From contig JAFZOW010000068.1 of NCBI GenBank assembly GCA_017552715.1, forward strand, positions 1 through 40,683: DNA of 40,683 nucleotides. Reading direction: 5' to 3'. The notes below the pieces were generated by a model, which had not been told where the DNA came from, searched no databases, and was given only the letters and a program-made list of their open reading frames with translations. Position 1 is the first letter of the stretch; each line of letters opens with the position of its first letter. The DNA is from Lachnospiraceae bacterium (GTDB lineage: Bacteria; Bacillota; Clostridia; Lachnospirales; Lachnospiraceae). The translations under genes were made by a program, and so were the position numbers. This document shows positions 612-31,252 of this stretch, piece after piece.

Positions 612-1130
612 ATGAATGAACTATGTATGATCATCAAGGATACTGTAAAACCCAATTTCCTGAATATAAGGACTTCCATACGAGCCTATGATCGTGACGC
701 CGACTGTCTTGGTGCTCCCTGCTGGCGTTGGGCATATCATGCACTGCACTCAGCCGACAAATGGTTTATCAACCCTTTCGATTACGTAGAACCTTCTTTC
801 CATGTAGAAGGATTGGACAACCCTGATAATCCGAGTAATGTAATACTATCAGACGAAGAACTGCTGGCATATCTTGATTCCATTGAAAAGAAAACACTTG
901 ATTATCTTGATACATTGACGGACCAAATGCTCTATGAAAAACCGGACGGCTGTAAATATACCAGATTGGAACTGGTGCTCCGTCAATACCGGCATCTCTC
1001 CTTCCATACCGGTATGCTAAACGGTCAAACCGCCCTTACCACCGGAAAGTTTCCGATGTGGGTATCAGAAACCGATCAGTATCTGGATGATGGCATCCTT
1101 TTTGGCAGATACCGCAAATATAAGGTGTGA
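612..1130 (+). CDS. DinB-like superfamily protein
   Basis: 172 residues. The start ATG at 612 follows AAGGAG at 598-603. The protein resembles the DinB/YfiT-like four-helix bundle family: a first helix with H43 and H46 (YHALHSADKW), a long acidic middle helix, and a last helix with RQYRHLSFHTGMLNG (about residues 124-138). Histidines spaced across helices are the usual metal site in this family, which includes thiol-dependent transferases and stress-induced proteins of unknown substrate. A specific reaction cannot be assigned. It is a single gene on the plus strand with its own terminator, and its base composition is more AT-rich than the operon to its right. Confidence 0.7.
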   Translation: MNELCMIIKDTVKPNFLNIRTSIRAYDRDADCLGAPCWRWAYHALHSADKWFINPFDYVEPSFHVEGLDNPDNPSNVILSDEELLAYLDSIEKKTLDYLDTLTDQMLYEKPDGCKYTRLELVLRQYRHLSFHTGMLNGQTALTTGKFPMWVSETDQYLDDGILFGRYRKYKV

Positions 1131-1202: not shown

Positions 1203-2696
1203 CTATCTACCCGTTTCACTGCCTTCTGCGTCTTTGATACGATAGTAGTCTTCCATCTTAACGCTAAGTTTCACGTAAGAATCCGCTTTTCGGTTGCTCA
1301 CGCGCTCAAGAAGCGCGGCAACTTCCACATGGCTTGTTTGCGGGAACATATCGCAGGCCCTGTATTTCTCCAGATGGTAGCCGCCTTCCGTAAAACGGTG
1401 CAGATCGCGGGCGAGGGTGGCAGGATCACAGCTGACATAAACGATACGCTGCGGTGCTGCGGAAAGGATCGTCTCCAGACAGGCACTGTCCAGGCCCTTG
1501 CGGGGAGGATCCACCACGACCACATCCGGACGTGCCCGCAGAAGCAGCTCCGGCGCAAGCTCTTCGGCAGCGCCGCAATGGAATTCCGCATTTTCGATCC
1601 CATTGTGTACGGCATTCTTCCGGGCATCCTCTATAGCCTGGGGTACGATCTCCACACCGTAAACCTTTCCCGCTTTCTTCGCCATAAACAGGGATATGGT
1701 CCCTATGCCGCAGTACAGATCCCAGACCACTTCGTTACCCGTAAGCCCGGCGTATTCCAGCGCTGTAGCATAGAGTTTCTCGGTCTGCAGGGGATTGACC
1801 TGGTAAAAGGAAAGGGGAGATATGGCATACTCGATCGTATCTTCCGAAACCTCATCGCCCTTCTGTACCGAGCAGCGAAGGCCGTCCGTGATACGTTCCT
1901 CTCCCCACAGCGTACAGCTGCTCTCTCCCATGATCACATTTGTCTGCTCCATGTTCACGCTGTACGAAATACTGTGCATCCCCGGGATACCGGCAAGTCC
2001 GCTTACCAGCTCCTTCTCCCTGGGAAGAGACGTATCGTTGATCACAAGGCAGACCATGAGCTGCCCCTTTGTGTGGCTTTTCCGTATCAGCACATGACGC
2101 AGCAGTCCCGTTCCCTTTTCTTCATCGTACGGAGCGATAGCATATTCTTCCATCCATTTCCTGACAGCCGACAGTACGGGCCGGCTCTCATCCGCCCCCA
2201 GGAGACAGTCTTCGCAGGGAACTATGCGGTGACTGTGTGTTGCATAAAAACCGAAGACCGTATTCCCATCACGGTCACTCCCAAAAGGATACTGGGCCTT
2301 ATTTCTGTAGCGCATGGTCTCATCGGCTGCAAGGATCGGTCTGTGGGCCTGTTCCAGGAGCTTTTCATCCAGGCCGCCGATACGCCGTAACACGTCGCGG
2401 ACCTTCTTTTCCTTATAACGCAGCTGAGCTTCATAACTCAAATGCATCAGCTGACAGCCGCCACAGCGCCCGAATGCGGGACAGGCTGGCTCCACACGGT
2501 CCGGAGAGGGCGTAAGTATCCGAAGGATACGGGCATAACCGTATGTCTTTTTCAGCTTGGTTATACCGGCCTCGATCACATCTCCTGCCAGAGCACCTTT
2601 TACAAAAAAAGGAAAGCCATCGAGCTTTCCGATGCCTTCCCCTTCCGATCCCAGATCGCTTATACTTAATTGTATCACATCATTCTTTTTATACAT
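1203..2696 (-). CDS. rlmD: 23S rRNA (uracil-5-)-methyltransferase, RlmD/RlmCD type
   Basis: 497 residues. The N-terminal TRAM domain (about 1-60) binds RNA. Cys72, Cys78, Cys81 and Cys164 (CPAFGRCGGC and PCEDC) match the [4Fe-4S] ligands of this family. The SAM-binding motif DLYCGIG is at 325-331 and DPPRKG at 395-400. The catalytic cysteine is in VSCDP at about 422. These enzymes make 5-methyluridine in 23S rRNA, and Gram-positive members often modify two sites. The C-terminus carries an extra 35 or so residues (DSYVKLSVKMEDYYRIKDAE) typical of clostridial homologues. It is the third gene of the htrA-like, yhaM, rlmD operon: only three bases separate it from the yhaM stop, and its ribosome binding site is weak, which suggests translational coupling. 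Confidence 0.93.
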   Translation of the reverse strand: MYKKNDVIQLSISDLGSEGEGIGKLDGFPFFVKGALAGDVIEAGITKLKKTYGYARILRILTPSPDRVEPACPAFGRCGGCQLMHLSYEAQLRYKEKKVRDVLRRIGGLDEKLLEQAHRPILAADETMRYRNKAQYPFGSDRDGNTVFGFYATHSHRIVPCEDCLLGADESRPVLSAVRKWMEEYAIAPYDEEKGTGLLRHVLIRKSHTKGQLMVCLVINDTSLPREKELVSGLAGIPGMHSISYSVNMEQTNVIMGESSCTLWGEERITDGLRCSVQKGDEVSEDTIEYAISPLSFYQVNPLQTEKLYATALEYAGLTGNEVVWDLYCGIGTISLFMAKKAGKVYGVEIVPQAIEDARKNAVHNGIENAEFHCGAAEELAPELLLRARPDVVVVDPPRKGLDSACLETILSAAPQRIVYVSCDPATLARDLHRFTEGGYHLEKYRACDMFPQTSHVEVAALLERVSNRKADSYVKLSVKMEDYYRIKDAEGSETGR

Positions 2697-18572: not shown

Positions 18573-19454
18573 TTACTTTCCTCCCGTAACCTTTCTCCAA
18601 AATTCACCTTTCCCGGGCGGGTACTCCATGTATCGCAGATATGACATCCCCGTGATCGCGTTCACTCCCTGATGCCACGACTCTTTGTCCACAACATATC
18701 CCTTCGTGCGGAATCTGTTCGGCTTAGTATTCATCCCTTCCGCCTGAAGCTCCAGAATGGCCTTCATTGTCCAATGCATGAATACCTTCTTCTCCGGGCA
18801 AGGTCTGATCAGATTGCGGCTGCTGCCGAAGTTCAGGATCTCCTTTACCTCTTCCTTGCTCAAAAGTGTCCCATCCTCGAGTTGCATAGGCTGCTCCTTT
18901 GCGATGTACTCCGCAAGCCTCTGACCATCCCCCACCTCACGAACGTGATCCAGATGAGCAAGACCATCCGCCGGGCAGAGTCCATCCTCCAGCATATCCT
19001 CCACCGGCGTCATCCCCCTGGCTCTCATCCATGCATCCGATATCATGAGATCCGCTTTCGGATCATTCAGTCTGTTCATCACAAGGTGGACATGTATCCC
19101 GCCCAGCTTCCCGATCTCGATGGAGTATATATACTTCATCTCCTCGCCTTCCTTGCGGAATCTGTCTCTCATCTTTCGGACGAACCTCTTGAAATCTTCC
19201 TTGACCTCCTGGATTGGCTTTCTCGTCCCTTTGGGATATTTCAGTGTCAGCCACAGATCCCCCTGCCTGAAGTTGAGCTGTATCGTCCTCCGGATGTAAT
19301 TCACCTTATTTCTGTGATTCTGCCTCTTGATCTGATCCGGAGTCGCCTTTGTCCTCTCTGCTCTCTTCTCTCCCTTTCCACCTCTTTTGCCTGCATAGGT
19401 GAAAACATGTTCTATTCCCCATGGCGATCTGTAAATGTATTCTGTAAAGGCCAT
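18573..19454 (-). CDS. HUH-type replication initiator/relaxase-like endonuclease
   Basis: 293 residues from ATG 19454. A TTG four codons upstream is less likely. Motif 1 is WLTLKYPKG (68-76). The metal-binding HUH motif is GGIHVHLVMNR with H121 and H123. The putative nucleophile motif is EYIAKE with Y183 and K186 (Y-x2-K). This is the order and spacing of single-Tyr Rep proteins that nick an origin and start rolling-circle replication. A Rep of this kind in a tailed dsDNA prophage suggests replication by nicking rather than by an O/P-type helicase loader. No helicase is fused or visible nearby. The leader (19455-19531) contains a small hairpin, GGCG-GATA-CGCC. Confidence 0.75.
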   Translation of the reverse strand: MAFTEYIYRSPWGIEHVFTYAGKRGGKGEKRAERTKATPDQIKRQNHRNKVNYIRRTIQLNFRQGDLWLTLKYPKGTRKPIQEVKEDFKRFVRKMRDRFRKEGEEMKYIYSIEIGKLGGIHVHLVMNRLNDPKADLMISDAWMRARGMTPVEDMLEDGLCPADGLAHLDHVREVGDGQRLAEYIAKEQPMQLEDGTLLSKEEVKEILNFGSSRNLIRPCPEKKVFMHWTMKAILELQAEGMNTKPNRFRTKGYVVDKESWHQGVNAITGMSYLRYMEYPPGKGEFWRKVTGGK

Positions 19455-19531
19455 CGTTCGTCCCAACTTTAATATGGTTAATAGTGCACTTAACGGCGTA
19501 TCCGCCTTTTTCTTCTTTTATATAGAAGAAA

Positions 19532-27244: not shown

Positions 27245-27637
27245 ATGACAGAATCCGAGCAGAAAAAGGTATTTGCAAATAATCTCCTCGATGAGCTGAG
27301 ACGCAGCAGAAAACAGCAAATTGATGTAGCAAAGGCTATCGGAGTGTCACAACAAACTTTCAATACATGGTGCCGCGGAATCGCTCTTCCTCGTATAGGG
27401 AAGATTGAGAAGCTTGCGCAGTATTTTCATATTCAGAAATCAGATCTTCTTGACCCTCATATTACTCCTTCCCACGCTGCGACACCTTTTGCTCCTGACG
27501 AAATTGCTCTGATCCGCGATTATAACAAGCTTAATGAACTCGGTAAGGAAGAGGCCCGGAAGCGCATCGCAGAACTGGCAGAGATCCAGAAGTATACTGA
27601 AGATGAATTTCAAAAAGACGCCAAAGTATCCGGATGA
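27245..27637 (+). CDS. Phage repressor (CI-like, XRE family, no peptidase domain)
   Basis: 130 residues from ATG 27245, after GGGAGGTGATTGAT. A GTG at 27236 is inside that site. The HTH_3 domain (about 8-65) has RKQQIDVAKAIGVSQQTFNT, then PRIGKIEKLAQYFHIQKSDL. A short C-terminal helix region (DEIALIRDYNKLNELGKEEA) is the dimer-type tail common in Gram-positive repressors. There is no S24 LexA-like cleavage domain and no ImmA-type protease gene nearby, so induction must work by another route. It is followed, after 60 bases, by the Abi gene on the same strand. Confidence 0.88.
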   Translation: MTESEQKKVFANNLLDELRRSRKQQIDVAKAIGVSQQTFNTWCRGIALPRIGKIEKLAQYFHIQKSDLLDPHITPSHAATPFAPDEIALIRDYNKLNELGKEEARKRIAELAEIQKYTEDEFQKDAKVSG

Positions 27638-27697
27638 TCCCAGCTATATAGTCAGTTCATTACATTATGTGATAATTAACCAATGGAGGTGTTTATA

Positions 27698-28657
27698 ATG
27701 AATGCTCACGATCAGCCACTACTCGATTCCAAACAACAAATTGAACATATGAAAGGTAAAGGTATACATTTCGATATTATTTCGGACGCTGATGCCGAAT
27801 CCTATCTTCGTGAAAATAACAATTATTTCAAAATCCGAGCTTACAGAAAAAATTTTGATAAATATGTCGGTGGTAAAAACGATGGCAAATATATCGATCT
27901 GGATTTTGCTGCATTGAAAGATCTCTCTATTATTGATATGCGCCTTCGCTATGCTGTGATCCATATGGCCCTTGATACAGAACATTTTTTGAAGGTAAAG
28001 CTTCTCCAGAAGGTAGAATTGAATCGTGAGGACGGATATAAAATTGTATCTGATTATTTTTCCGATCTCCAGAACAGAGATATGGCTAACGGAACACATT
28101 TTTACAATCAGCTTACCGATGAACTGAACCGAAATAAGAATAATCCCTATTGTGGCGGAATAATCAATGCATGTTCTGATGGTTATTCCGTATGGGCATT
28201 TATTGAAGTTATTCCCCTCGGCTCGTTACTTTCCTTTTACATTTTTTGTGCTAATCGCTTTCACGATCGAAGTATGGTCAATGACTACCACTTGATGAAA
28301 GATATTCGCGAGTTACGAAATGCTGCCGCCCATAACAACTGTATTCTTCACGATATGAAAGTCCACGATCAACGACATGCCCCAAATCTAAATATGCTTT
28401 CCGCTATTTCATCAATTTCAAAATCCACACGTCAAAAGAGACTTTCTAACGAAAGAATGCGACAGCTTTGCACCCTTTTATACGCTCACCGCATGTTAGT
28501 TTCCAGCCCTGGTGTTCTTGATCATACATCTACGGTATTGCATCAGCTCATTGACCGTATGTTTAAGCATAAAAACTACTATAGCCAAACATCTCCTGTG
28601 CTGGCAAGCTTTTCCTTCTTTCAAAAAATCGTAGAGATTTTTTACAAAAAAACTTGA
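27698..28657 (+). CDS. Abi_2 family (AbiD/AbiF-like) HEPN abortive-infection protein
   Basis: 319 residues from ATG 27698, placed after GGAGGTG. An in-frame ATG at 27683 lies ahead of that site. The N-terminus has the Abi_2 pattern SYLRENNNYFKIRAYRKNF (about 36-53). A HEPN RxxxxH motif is RNAAAH (R207-H212) in ELRNAAAHNNCI, and a second fitting motif is RYAVIH (R84-H89). Abi_2 proteins are phage-defence proteins. HEPN domains with RxxxxH usually act as RNases, so RNA cleavage on infection is inferred. The gene is more AT-rich than the rest of the phage, suggesting separate acquisition. The TGA stop lies within the -35 box of the next promoter. It is probably expressed in the lysogen with the repressor. 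Confidence 0.85.
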   Translation: MNAHDQPLLDSKQQIEHMKGKGIHFDIISDADAESYLRENNNYFKIRAYRKNFDKYVGGKNDGKYIDLDFAALKDLSIIDMRLRYAVIHMALDTEHFLKVKLLQKVELNREDGYKIVSDYFSDLQNRDMANGTHFYNQLTDELNRNKNNPYCGGIINACSDGYSVWAFIEVIPLGSLLSFYIFCANRFHDRSMVNDYHLMKDIRELRNAAAHNNCILHDMKVHDQRHAPNLNMLSAISSISKSTRQKRLSNERMRQLCTLLYAHRMLVSSPGVLDHTSTVLHQLIDRMFKHKNYYSQTSPVLASFSFFQKIVEIFYKKT

Positions 28658-28683
28658 CATAACATTATCGATTTACATATAAT
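28654..28683 (+). promoter_or_regulatory. Consensus promoter right after the abi gene
   Basis: TTGACA (28654-28659), 18 bp, TATAAT (28678-28683). Both hexamers are perfect. Predicted start near 28690. The abi stop codon is bases 28655-28657, inside the -35 box. Confidence 0.85.
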
Positions 28684-28689
28684 ACAGTC

Positions 28690-28754
28690 ACATGGAAAAA
28701 AGCGCAAGCTTTTTAAAGAGCGTGACTGTGCAAGCGGTCGTGCTCTATTTTTTT
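28690..28754 (+). ncRNA. Putative structured small RNA downstream of abi
   Basis: About 65 nt from the predicted start to the end of a seven-T run. Hairpin 1: AAAAAGC-GCAA-GCTTTTT (28697-28714). Hairpin 2: GAGCGTGAC paired with GTCGTGCTC (28718-28726 with 28737-28745, two G-U pairs), then TATTTTTTT, an intrinsic terminator. No start codon with a ribosome binding site lies inside. A consensus promoter, folded RNA and terminator next to a HEPN Abi_2 gene look like a toxin-antitoxin RNA pair. I recall that AbiF-type proteins have been reported beside structured RNAs and related to Cas13, but cannot check this here. It could instead be a leader or attenuator of the integrase gene. Confidence 0.6.
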
Positions 28755-28767
28755 GGGGGGTATTCAT

Positions 28768-29805
28768 ATGGCGAAAGCAAAGAAACTGAAATCCGGATCC
28801 TGGAGAGTCCAGGTATTCTCCCATTGGGAATATGTTGACGGCAAAAAGGTGAAGCGTCAGCGTTCTTTTACTGCCCCCACAAAGGCGGAGGCCGAAATGA
28901 AGGCGGCGAAGTTCGCCTCCGATAAAGACCGCTTCTCCTCCTGCTCTTATACCGTTGGCGAGGCCGTAGACATCTACATCCGTTCGAAGGGGGCTGTACT
29001 GTCTCCCTCTACGGTGCGCGGCTATAATGTGATCCGCCAGCGCCTCGGATTCATCGAGGACATCCGCGTTGACGCTCTCAGCAATGCCGATCTGCAGCAT
29101 TGGATCAGCACGCTCAGCTCCCAGGTATCTGCAAAGACCGTGAAGAACTCCTACGCCCTTGTGTCTGCTGCCGTGTCTGTCTTCTCTGATCGTGTCTTCA
29201 AAGTCACTCTTCCGACCCGTCAGCCGCTCCAGTACAATGTACCCACGGACGAGGATGTGCAGCACCTCATGGACGAGGCCCGCCCGGATCTCCGGCTTGC
29301 CATTGCCCTGGCTGCCATAGGCACTCTTCGACGCGGTGAGATCTGCGGCCTTAAATACAAGGATGTGCTTTACGACTTCAAGGCTGTATTTGTGCACACA
29401 GACATGGTGCAGGCTCTTGATAATTCATGGATCCACAAAGAGATACCGAAGACCTCCGATTCCGTCCGGCGTGTTGTTCTCCCGAAGGAAGTCATGGATC
29501 TGATCGGCGAAGGGGATCCTGAGGAATATGTCGTTAAATCTACCCCGACGGCTATCTCCCACGCATTTACCCGTCTTCGTAATAAACTTGGTCTGAAATG
29601 CCGTTTTCACGACCTGCGCCACTATGCAGCGTCCATCCTCCATGCGATCGGAATGCCGGACCAATACATCATGGAGCGCGGAGGATGGTCCACAGACGGA
29701 ACCCTGAAGGCCGTCTACCGGAATACGCTCTCCGACAAATCGAAGGCATATTCCGACAAAGCAAACGAGTATTTTGAGCAGAAACTGCTCCGAAAAACTG
29801 AATAG
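28768..29805 (+). CDS. int: Tyrosine integrase
   Basis: 345 residues from ATG 28768, after GGGGGG. An upstream GTG-like extension to 28753 is unlikely. N-terminal arm-binding domain (1-60), core-binding SAM-like domain (61-150), catalytic domain with R188 (GTLRRGEICGL), K228 (PKTSDSVRRV), H281-x2-R284 (FHDLRHYAA), W307 (GGWST) and nucleophile Y317 (KAVYRNTLSD). All six catalytic positions are filled (Trp in the His/Trp position). It lies next to attR, and two arm-type repeats begin two bases after the stop. A terminator directly ahead of its ribosome binding site means expression needs read-through. Confidence 0.95.
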   Translation: MAKAKKLKSGSWRVQVFSHWEYVDGKKVKRQRSFTAPTKAEAEMKAAKFASDKDRFSSCSYTVGEAVDIYIRSKGAVLSPSTVRGYNVIRQRLGFIEDIRVDALSNADLQHWISTLSSQVSAKTVKNSYALVSAAVSVFSDRVFKVTLPTRQPLQYNVPTDEDVQHLMDEARPDLRLAIALAAIGTLRRGEICGLKYKDVLYDFKAVFVHTDMVQALDNSWIHKEIPKTSDSVRRVVLPKEVMDLIGEGDPEEYVVKSTPTAISHAFTRLRNKLGLKCRFHDLRHYAASILHAIGMPDQYIMERGGWSTDGTLKAVYRNTLSDKSKAYSDKANEYFEQKLLRKTE

Positions 29806-30013: not shown

Positions 30014-31252
30014 TCAGACTACAGCTCCCCGGATCGATACACCGTCGGGAATATAGGCCTTTATGCGTATCCCGTCCTCAGCGTATTCTTCTTCCAGCAG
30101 CTCACCGTATCGGCGAAGCTCCGCCAGGGCTTTTGCCTCGGTATAGGATATGGTGCATTCCACAAGACGGCGGTTTTTCTGAAGGATCACATCAATGCAT
30201 TCCAGCAGTTCCTCCAGCCGGTATCCGCTCTTTGCCGAGATCCTTATGCTTTCATCCGCATGATCGTCCCACAGCCGGGTATCTTCCTCCAGAAGGTCTA
30301 CCTTGTTAAAAGCCGTGATAATGGGCTTCCCGGAGATCTCCAGCTCACGAAGCGTCTCATAAACCACCTGCATATGCATCTCCAGCGCAGGATCCGAAGC
30401 ATCCGCCACATGCAGGATCACATCCGCATAGCGGGCTTCCTCCAGGGTACTGCGGAACGCATCGATCAGCTGATGGGGCAGTTTATTGATGAAGCCTACG
30501 GTATCGGTAAACAGCACTTCCTGCCCGCCCTTCAATACACAGGTACGGGTGGTGGGATCCAGCGTTGCAAAAAGCTTATCCTCCGAAAGCACCTCTGAAT
30601 CCGTCAGACGGTTTAAGAGGGTGGATTTTCCCGCATTCGTGTAACCCACGATCGCCACCACCGGGCGAAGGTTTCCCATACGCTTTTTCCGTGTGGTCAT
30701 ACGCACCCTCTGCATGTCCTTTATCTCGGAACCCAGGCGAGAGATACGTTTTCCTATCACTCTCCTGTCTGTTTCCAGCTTGGATTCACCGGGACCTCTT
30801 GTTCCTATACCGCCGCCCAGACGGGACATGGCTTTGCCGGCACCGGTCAGCCTGCTCACGCGATATTTCAGCTGTGCCATTTCCACCTGCAGCTTACCTT
30901 CACTGGTATGGGCATGCGCTGCAAAGATATCCAGGATCAGCATGGTACGGTCAATGACCTTTGCATCCAAAAGCTCCGAAAGATTCTTCATCTGGGCCGG
31001 GCTGAGTTCATCATCGCAGACGATACCGTCCGCCTCCCGGGCCGTCAGGGAGATCTTCAATTCCATTGCTTTTCCGCTGCCGATGTAAGTCGCCGGATCG
31101 GGATGGGCAAGCTTCTGCTTCATCCTGCCCACAGCTTCCGCACCTGCCGTATCCAGCAGTTCGGCCAGTTCATCCAGTGAGGCATCCGCTTCCTCTTCCT
31201 CACCGGAATATGCTATCAGTAAGATATATTTTTCTCTTGTATTTTCGTTCAT
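30014..31252 (-). CDS. hflX: Ribosome-associated GTPase HflX
   Basis: 412 residues. The N-terminal HflX nucleotide-binding domain (about 5-190) includes GIVCDDELSPAQMKNL and the Gly-rich GGGIGTRGPGESKLETDRR. The G domain has P-loop GYTNAGKST (203-211), DTVGF (250-254) and NKVD. A short C-terminal domain (about 365-412) completes the usual length. HflX binds the 50S subunit and rescues or splits stalled or stressed ribosomes. The start follows AAGGAGGAATGAACT. It is a single gene, ended by the bidirectional terminator next to the prophage. Confidence 0.95.
   Translation of the reverse strand: MNENTREKYILLIAYSGEEEEADASLDELAELLDTAGAEAVGRMKQKLAHPDPATYIGSGKAMELKISLTAREADGIVCDDELSPAQMKNLSELLDAKVIDRTMLILDIFAAHAHTSEGKLQVEMAQLKYRVSRLTGAGKAMSRLGGGIGTRGPGESKLETDRRVIGKRISRLGSEIKDMQRVRMTTRKKRMGNLRPVVAIVGYTNAGKSTLLNRLTDSEVLSEDKLFATLDPTTRTCVLKGGQEVLFTDTVGFINKLPHQLIDAFRSTLEEARYADVILHVADASDPALEMHMQVVYETLRELEISGKPIITAFNKVDLLEEDTRLWDDHADESIRISAKSGYRLEELLECIDVILQKNRRLVECTISYTEAKALAELRRYGELLEEEYAEDGIRIKAYIPDGVSIRGAVV

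Follow-up and report, generated by a model that had tools for sequence, protein, structure and literature searches.

A putative AbiF-type toxin-antitoxin module with a structured RNA encoded directly behind the toxin gene in a Lachnospiraceae prophage

A prophage of a Lachnospiraceae bacterium carries a gene of the AbiF family that runs into the promoter of a small structured RNA, and the pairing recurs with the same arrangement, RNA directly behind gene, throughout a clade of relatives. The relatives also keep the RNxxxH motif of the protein, the promoter and an RNA fold that is backed by covariation. Gene and RNA probably (at roughly 0.7) constitute a type III-like toxin-antitoxin or abortive-infection module, in which a HEPN ribonuclease of the AbiF family would be silenced by an RNA of 65 nt, and this module would represent a distinct branch of such systems. 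The whole stretch of DNA that was analysed, 40,683 nucleotides of contig JAFZOW010000068.1 (assembly GCA_017552715.1), is called the window below. A first-pass annotation, made from the letters of the window, had proposed a HEPN Abi_2 protein and a small structured RNA in the layout of an RNA-protein toxin-antitoxin pair. This proposal has held up, as fold, place and promoter are all kept beside relatives, and AbiF systems of this kind have been described (PMC12373285, in its accessible part).

The locus and its prophage setting

The features of the locus are collected in Table 1. Upstream of the module, on the minus strand, lie genes with matches to terminase, portal, major head, tape measure and replication initiator proteins; with the integrase on the other side, these phage structural matches agree with the prophage setting that had been read from the letters. 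The replication initiator (18573–19466, minus strand) shows a weaker match to rolling-circle initiators and adjoins tailed-phage genes. The GTPase gene beyond the integrase presumably encodes HflX.

Table 1. Features of the module and its neighbours in the window
Feature	Position	Strand	Basis
GGAGG, likely ribosome-binding site of the abi gene	27685–27689	+	sequence; 8 nt ahead of ATG 27698
AbiF/AbiD-type Abi_2 gene, 319 aa, putative HEPN RNase toxin; start ATG 27698, stop TGA 28655–28657	27698–28657	+	Pfam, PADLOC, PDB 8vz6 profile, RNxxxH; start and stop from sequence
Promoter of the RNA: −35 TTGACA 28654–28659, 18-nt spacer, −10 TATAAT 28678–28683	28654–28683	+	12/12; kept in relatives
Structured RNA of about 65 nt, putative antitoxin; 5′ end inferred from the promoter	28690–28754	+	fold, covariance model R2
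Hairpin 1: A-rich arm, GCAA loop, U-rich arm	28697–28714	+	fold; 72–83% of alignment cells paired in relatives
Hairpin 2: 13 pairs, GCAA loop, doubles as terminator stem	28717–28746	+	fold, terminator search, covariation
T-run of the terminator	28748–28754	+	sequence
Tyrosine integrase (int) of the prophage, neighbour outside the module	28768–29805	+	Pfam Phage_integrase
GTPase gene with HflX-like domains, beyond the integrase	30014–31252		domain matches

Eight promoter-like sites were counted between 27400 and 29100. Since shuffles give 4.2 of these, sites weaker than 12/12 carry little meaning, and the promoter of the RNA is the only one that agrees with the sigma-70 consensus at all 12 positions; the best site just ahead of the abi gene reaches 9/12. 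The stop codon of abi sits within the −35 box, exactly as first described, and the two hairpins with a terminator, delimiting an RNA of about 65 nt, were likewise recovered. The RNA folds with −24.2 kcal/mol (z −4.08), and none of 200 shuffles folds equally well. Covariance model R2, of which the window RNA is a training member, scores it at 56.1 bits (E 1.5e-9 for a search of the window). Hairpin 2, together with its T-run, is one of two terminator-like sites where 1.5 are expected, and it is because of the comparative evidence across relatives that the RNA is judged to be beyond chance.

A HEPN protein of the AbiF family

The window protein belongs to the Abi_2 family of Pfam (73.9 bits against a cut-off of 25.6, E 2.6e-20) and matches the AbiD model of PADLOC (E 1e-17). 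The first-pass annotation had named two HEPN motifs in it. One of them stood: within RNAAAH (residues 207–212), which contains the RNxxxH core, all 77 aligned sequences agree at R207, N208 and H212. The other, RYAVIH, did not, as R84 is matched by R in 75 of the 77 sequences but H89 by H in only 11. A profile of 37 relatives retrieved the PDB chain 8vz6, PbAbiF, at E 4.2e-6 and one further chain at 0.36, and a search of the PDB with the single window protein gave no match up to E 1. On this profile comparison the window protein is a distant homologue of PbAbiF, and ribonuclease activity and a part in phage defence may be expected of it by homology.

A structured RNA kept directly behind the gene

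Scans of genome contigs and viral contigs with the single protein returned no relatives, but a query built from an alignment found many; 277 of its 291 pattern matches in genome contigs and 52 of 63 in viral contigs are relatives. The best 80 of the 277 were analysed as genome-contig loci. Two detectors of the RNA were used on the loci. First, a strict detector, defined as an A-rich/U-rich hairpin, a short gap, a second hairpin and a T-run, was positive 3′ of the stop codon in 29 of the first 46 loci (48 less two duplicates) and in 0 of 920 shuffles. In a later set of 84 non-redundant relatives, obtained from 132 loci of which 117 passed checks of length and start and were then thinned to less than 80% identity, it was positive in 54; none of 840 shuffles and none of 82 upstream regions gave a signal. 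Second, covariance model R1, built from 14 RNAs with the pairs of hairpin 1 entered by hand, matched an RNA directly 3′ of the gene (E up to 1) in 66 of the best 80 of the 277 relatives. Once eight recognised training contigs are set aside, the count is 58 of 72 loci, which still includes near-copies of training RNAs on other contigs (L092, for example, is like L007). Such a search beside other Abi_2 genes was the check that the first-pass annotation had itself suggested, and a conserved fold beside homologues is what it returned.

Elsewhere in the 512,183 bases of the 80 loci, R1 has four matches, one of which lies behind a second, divergent Abi gene (L122). In viral contigs it places the RNA 3′ of the gene in 20 of 52 loci and gives three further matches by our own count; in one of these (L150, 4964–5455) a 3′ part of the gene is repeated and a second RNA follows the repeat. 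R1 misses 14 of the best 80 genomic loci and 32 of the 52 viral ones, and the strict detector misses 30 of 84; by eye, many of the missed loci retain promoter and hairpins, which were not seen in L041, L054, L114 and L131. A structured RNA kept beside the putative toxin gene is thus found here, as in type III systems.

Several loci vary the arrangement. In L005, similar RNA-like sequence stands on both sides of the abi gene (about 1330–1420 and 2370–2460). Viral contigs L178–L193 and a Vagococcus lutrae plasmid (L256) carry a downstream RNA lengthened by an additional hairpin ahead of the terminator, which R1 misses, and some BLAST-level kin of this subgroup are streptococcal satellite phages. 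In phage NatCom_18656 (L254), a relative of abi lies between the portal and terminase genes on the opposite strand and is followed by the RNA (R2, 26.2 bits). Plasmid pUC08C of Lactococcus lactis (L257) has an Abi family gene with TTGACA just ahead of its stop codon, a TATTAT-like −10 box and hairpin-prone sequence after it, with no R2 match.

A promoter that overlaps the end of abi

The overlap of gene and promoter is not peculiar to the window. In a set of 69 genomic and viral RNAs, from which near-identical and the weakest ones were left out, a promoter site of at least 10/12 stands just ahead of 57 RNAs, against 2.0% of 1380 letter shuffles, and one of at least 11/12 ahead of 42, against 0.14%. 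Five of the 69 are without a called abi frame; in 55 of the remaining 64 the −35 box begins while the frame is still open. In many relatives TTGACA encodes, in frame, part of (V/I)-(V/I)-D close to the C-terminus, an example being GTTATTGACAACTGG, V-I-D-N-W.

These data bear on two simpler explanations. Hairpin 2 with its T-run does score as a terminator, and it might be nothing else than the terminator of the abi transcript, with promoter and hairpin 1 incidental; this is very unlikely, since termination would require no conserved promoter across or past the stop codon, no hairpin 1, and no near-constant linker and start of hairpin 2. Alternatively, promoter, hairpins and terminator might form a leader or attenuator of the integrase gene, which in the window begins only 14 nt past the T-run. 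Against this highly improbable reading, a tblastn search with the window integrase was positive in the neighbourhood of abi in 4 of 84 loci (very divergent integrases would escape), the next open reading frame is on the opposite strand in 33 of the 49 loci where it is readable, and the RNA tracks the abi gene, not int. Transcription that reads on into int, raised at the outset as an outcome that would count against the pairing, is therefore not a general explanation of the RNA.

Covariation of the RNA fold

Covariation was counted in an alignment fitted to the structure by covariance model, for which 86 chosen loci were searched to give 76 matches and 74 distinct rows. It contains 164 double-changed cells in which pairing is kept, against 43.6 (sd 7.2) in shuffles. 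Such changes occur in 12 of 16 pairs, a number reached by 7 of 500 shuffles, and when the partners are slid, pairing falls from 89.9% to 44–58%. In hairpin 2, 98% of cells are paired and all 10 of 10 pairs show changes on both sides. In an unfitted MAFFT alignment of 14 RNAs, the 10 predicted pairs all belong to hairpin 2, and eight of them have both partners altered; on these data hairpin 2 is firmly supported. RNAalifold predicted hairpin 2 alone for 14 closer RNAs, and no structure for a MAFFT alignment of 34 divergent ones. Hairpin 1 forms in most RNAs folded singly, and its arms change together in many loci; as its pairs were added to R1 by hand, its presence in the models is partly our own choice, and it is less well supported than hairpin 2. 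The RNA consists of stem, loop and conserved linker almost throughout, and among relatives the linker and the start of hairpin 2 are near-constant.

The small size and stability of the RNA, its separate promoter and the putative toxin gene alongside would also suit control of type I kind, in which the RNA acts as antisense against the abi mRNA. The RNA, however, paired with the abi start region (−50 to +40) of its own locus no more strongly than with the start regions from elsewhere; the mean cognate rank over 42 loci was 0.504, where chance gives 0.5, and antisense control is accordingly most improbable.

Distribution of protein and RNA

Genomes with a relative of the protein, the window's own included, number 6 of 98 among relatives, 11 of 391 in the class, 30 of 397 in the family and 18 of 398 in the phylum; relatives also occur in 15 phage and 18 plasmid records. 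Judged by record titles, the carriers are mainly Bacillota with some Actinomycetota, such as Adlercreutzia and Olsenella. Named carriers include Acetitomaculum ruminis DSM 5522, [Clostridium] fimetarium DSM 9179 and Parasporobacterium paucivorans DSM 15970.

R2, run on the 397 family genomes, gave 41 RNA matches in 38 genomes. A protein match was recorded in 30 genomes, and 20 of them belong to these 38, where about 2.9 would be expected by chance (the two lists apparently come from the same draw of family genomes); the RNA occurs without a protein match in 18 of 38 genomes and the protein without an RNA match in 10 of 30. Some of the weak R2 matches in family genomes are probably due to chance. 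Viewed in their loci and sorted by hand, 30 R2 matches comprise 22 with a relative of abi and eight with none by HMM. The 22 genes are full length in 13 cases (window included), broken or partial in eight and cut by a contig end in one. In L224 and L258 the RNA is kept beside a decayed C-terminal end of abi.

RNA-model matches of 44–56 bits with no adjoining abi gene were observed in L206/L260, L218, L219 and L222, which are possible solo antitoxins or relics. The match in L206/L260 (G782:C21, 56 bits) has neither a gene remnant nor an evident promoter and may be a solo RNA. Those in L225–L227, all below 40 bits, may be chance matches.

Relation to the RF03085 abiF RNA

The RF03085 family, which reportedly goes back to Weinberg et al. 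in 2017, resembles the window RNA in being a short structured RNA adjoining Abi_2 genes. Its model is a single bulged hairpin of 37 positions, and where examined it lies upstream of the gene, whereas the window RNA lies downstream and does not match it: RF03085 found nothing in window positions 28600–28800 at E up to 10 or in the RNA of 17 relatives at E up to 1, and Rfam searches gave no family that accounts for the window RNA. The RF03085 matches that were examined for a neighbouring gene, in L062, L064, L228 and L229, sit just ahead of an Abi gene; L060 and L065 hold further matches. In L001, L230, L231 and others, Abi_2 genes have an upstream hairpin that resembles RF03085 by eye, with no Rfam match up to E 1. 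R2 found nothing convincing in these upstream-hairpin and RF03085 loci.

The proteins divide in the same way. In a quick tree of 51 chosen proteins, calculated without bootstraps and with groups taken from hand-read flanks, a branch with SH-aLRT 97 parts 14 upstream-side rows (10 with an upstream hairpin, three with RF03085, and PbAbiF) from 37 downstream-RNA rows that include the window. Long branches, which call for caution, belong to 8vz6 and L239 and occur where L240/L241 join; PbAbiF falls on the upstream-RNA side, on a long branch drawn from a fragment. L063 was left out, as no Abi frame was found there.

Three further observations belong here. L240 and L241 encode long-branched Abi_2 proteins with RNAVAH, and a promoter-like stretch and two hairpins lie downstream of the gene. 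At L001 (contig C88, about 2140–2275, minus strand), the window's own genome has a second Abi_2 gene (RNKCAH) with an upstream two-hairpin terminator-like RNA, for which a pattern scan of viral contigs gave no match. L052, whose abi gene is of the downstream type, has an RF03085-like hairpin some 750 nt downstream of that gene (694–731, minus strand; 34.6 bits, below the cut-off), which possibly belongs to a second AbiF gene past the end of the locus.

Comparison with known systems

RNA antitoxins of AbiF proteins were published in 2025. In the accessible text of that report, RCd22 of C. difficile neutralises the AbiFCd toxin in cis and in trans, and a terminator between RNA and toxin limits the toxin mRNA (PMC12373285). 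AbiFCd-RCd22, from the Clostridioides difficile prophage phi027, and the window have in common a prophage-borne Abi_2 protein with an RNxxxH motif and an adjoining small structured RNA with a SigA-type promoter and its own terminator. RCd22, however, is encoded ahead of the toxin, which is reached by read-through from the same promoter, and contains two RF03085 motifs, whereas the window RNA lies downstream, needs no read-through, has its own promoter overlapping the toxin end, and has two hairpins that do not match RF03085; toxicity and neutralisation, putative for the window module, were tested for AbiFCd-RCd22 (PMC12373285). The homologous PbAbiF, from a Prevotellaceae bacterium, is described in the accessible texts as an RNase held by a cis-encoded RNA antitoxin, AbiFr, and its structure with RNA has been published (PDB 8vz6; Zilberzwige-Tal et al., Cell 2025; PMC12737573; PMC12373285). 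By homology to these two pairs, the window protein would be an RNA-neutralised RNase toxin and the window RNA its antitoxin. Against this reading, the window RNA differs from the tested RF03085 antitoxin motif in sequence, fold and place.

A terminated short RNA also accompanies abiD1, an AbiD/F-type gene of Lactococcus lactis; this abundant 50-base transcript ends at a terminator just upstream of the gene, whereas the window RNA is downstream, and the available part of the paper treats the terminator as a regulator, with phage Orf1 and cold as activators of translation (PMC2661086). Type III systems of ToxIN type likewise join an RNase toxin with an inhibiting RNA partner, putative in the window, but there the toxin shares its transcript with an array of RNA repeats that precedes it, whereas the window RNA is a single downstream copy with its own promoter (PMC12373285, as far as accessible). 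No tandem repeats of the RNA were found at 27400–28900, neither in the manner of type III repeats nor as a Cas13-like array. To our knowledge, the toxin folds of ToxIN-type and AbiF systems are unrelated.

The same conserved pairing of gene and RNA would result if the RNA were a cofactor, guide or activator and the ribonucleoprotein the active defence complex, as in Cas13, of which AbiD/F proteins are proposed relatives (PMC12165695, in part). This is unlikely, as the locus has no repeat array, the RNA shows no evident variable guide stretch, and the tested relative RCd22 inhibits its toxin (PMC12373285); the lack of repeats also speaks against the RNA-guided RNase that the first-pass annotation had entertained.

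Proposed mode of action

For the toxin-antitoxin reading, we infer transcription, toxicity, RNase activity, binding, neutralisation, trigger and defence role as follows. The AbiF-family protein would be a HEPN ribonuclease that stops growth when free; by homology it would form a homodimer in which each subunit has one RNxxxH site. The 65-nt RNA would be made from the strong promoter, which shares part of its −35 box with the 3′ end of the toxin gene, would end at its own terminator, hairpin 2, and would bind and silence the protein. The RNA should be in excess, because its promoter scores 12/12 and the best site ahead of abi only 9/12. If the supply of RNA were lost, as might happen once host transcription is shut down or degraded by an infecting phage, the RNase would be freed, and the lysogen population might thereby be protected or loss of the prophage punished. 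We know of no experiment on the downstream-RNA branch of AbiF.

Significance

An AbiF protein with an RNA antitoxin is a known kind of system; what sets the window module apart, provisionally, is an RNA of another type, placed behind the gene instead of ahead of it. A search covering part of the literature found no report of a downstream AbiF RNA; within the accessible AbiF literature, the RNA is of the upstream RF03085 type or is AbiFr without a stated location. AbiF covariance models from Zilberzwige-Tal et al. are mentioned in the available text of PMC12804078, and the window RNA may therefore already be among the described AbiF RNAs.

Covariance models such as those used here can find these modules, and also solo RNAs, in unannotated genomes, and the named carriers make the module testable. 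We further propose, with slightly less than even confidence, that Bacillota, Actinomycetota (Eggerthellaceae and kin) and phages harbour an AbiF branch whose antitoxin RNA, unrelated to RF03085 or unrecognisable from it, lies behind the toxin gene with its promoter in the last codons of the toxin, so that the two could not be separated where the toxin gene ends and the antitoxin begins. Copies of the RNA would persist after the decay of their toxin genes and may serve on their own as antitoxins to AbiF elements that enter the cell. AbiF-RNA pairs have been proposed as ancestors of Cas13 (PMC12373285 and PMC12737573, whose accessible parts cite Cell 2025). A sister branch that differs in its RNA and gene order, and whose promoter lies within the toxin gene, would be a natural comparison for how HEPN ribonucleases gain or change their RNA partners.
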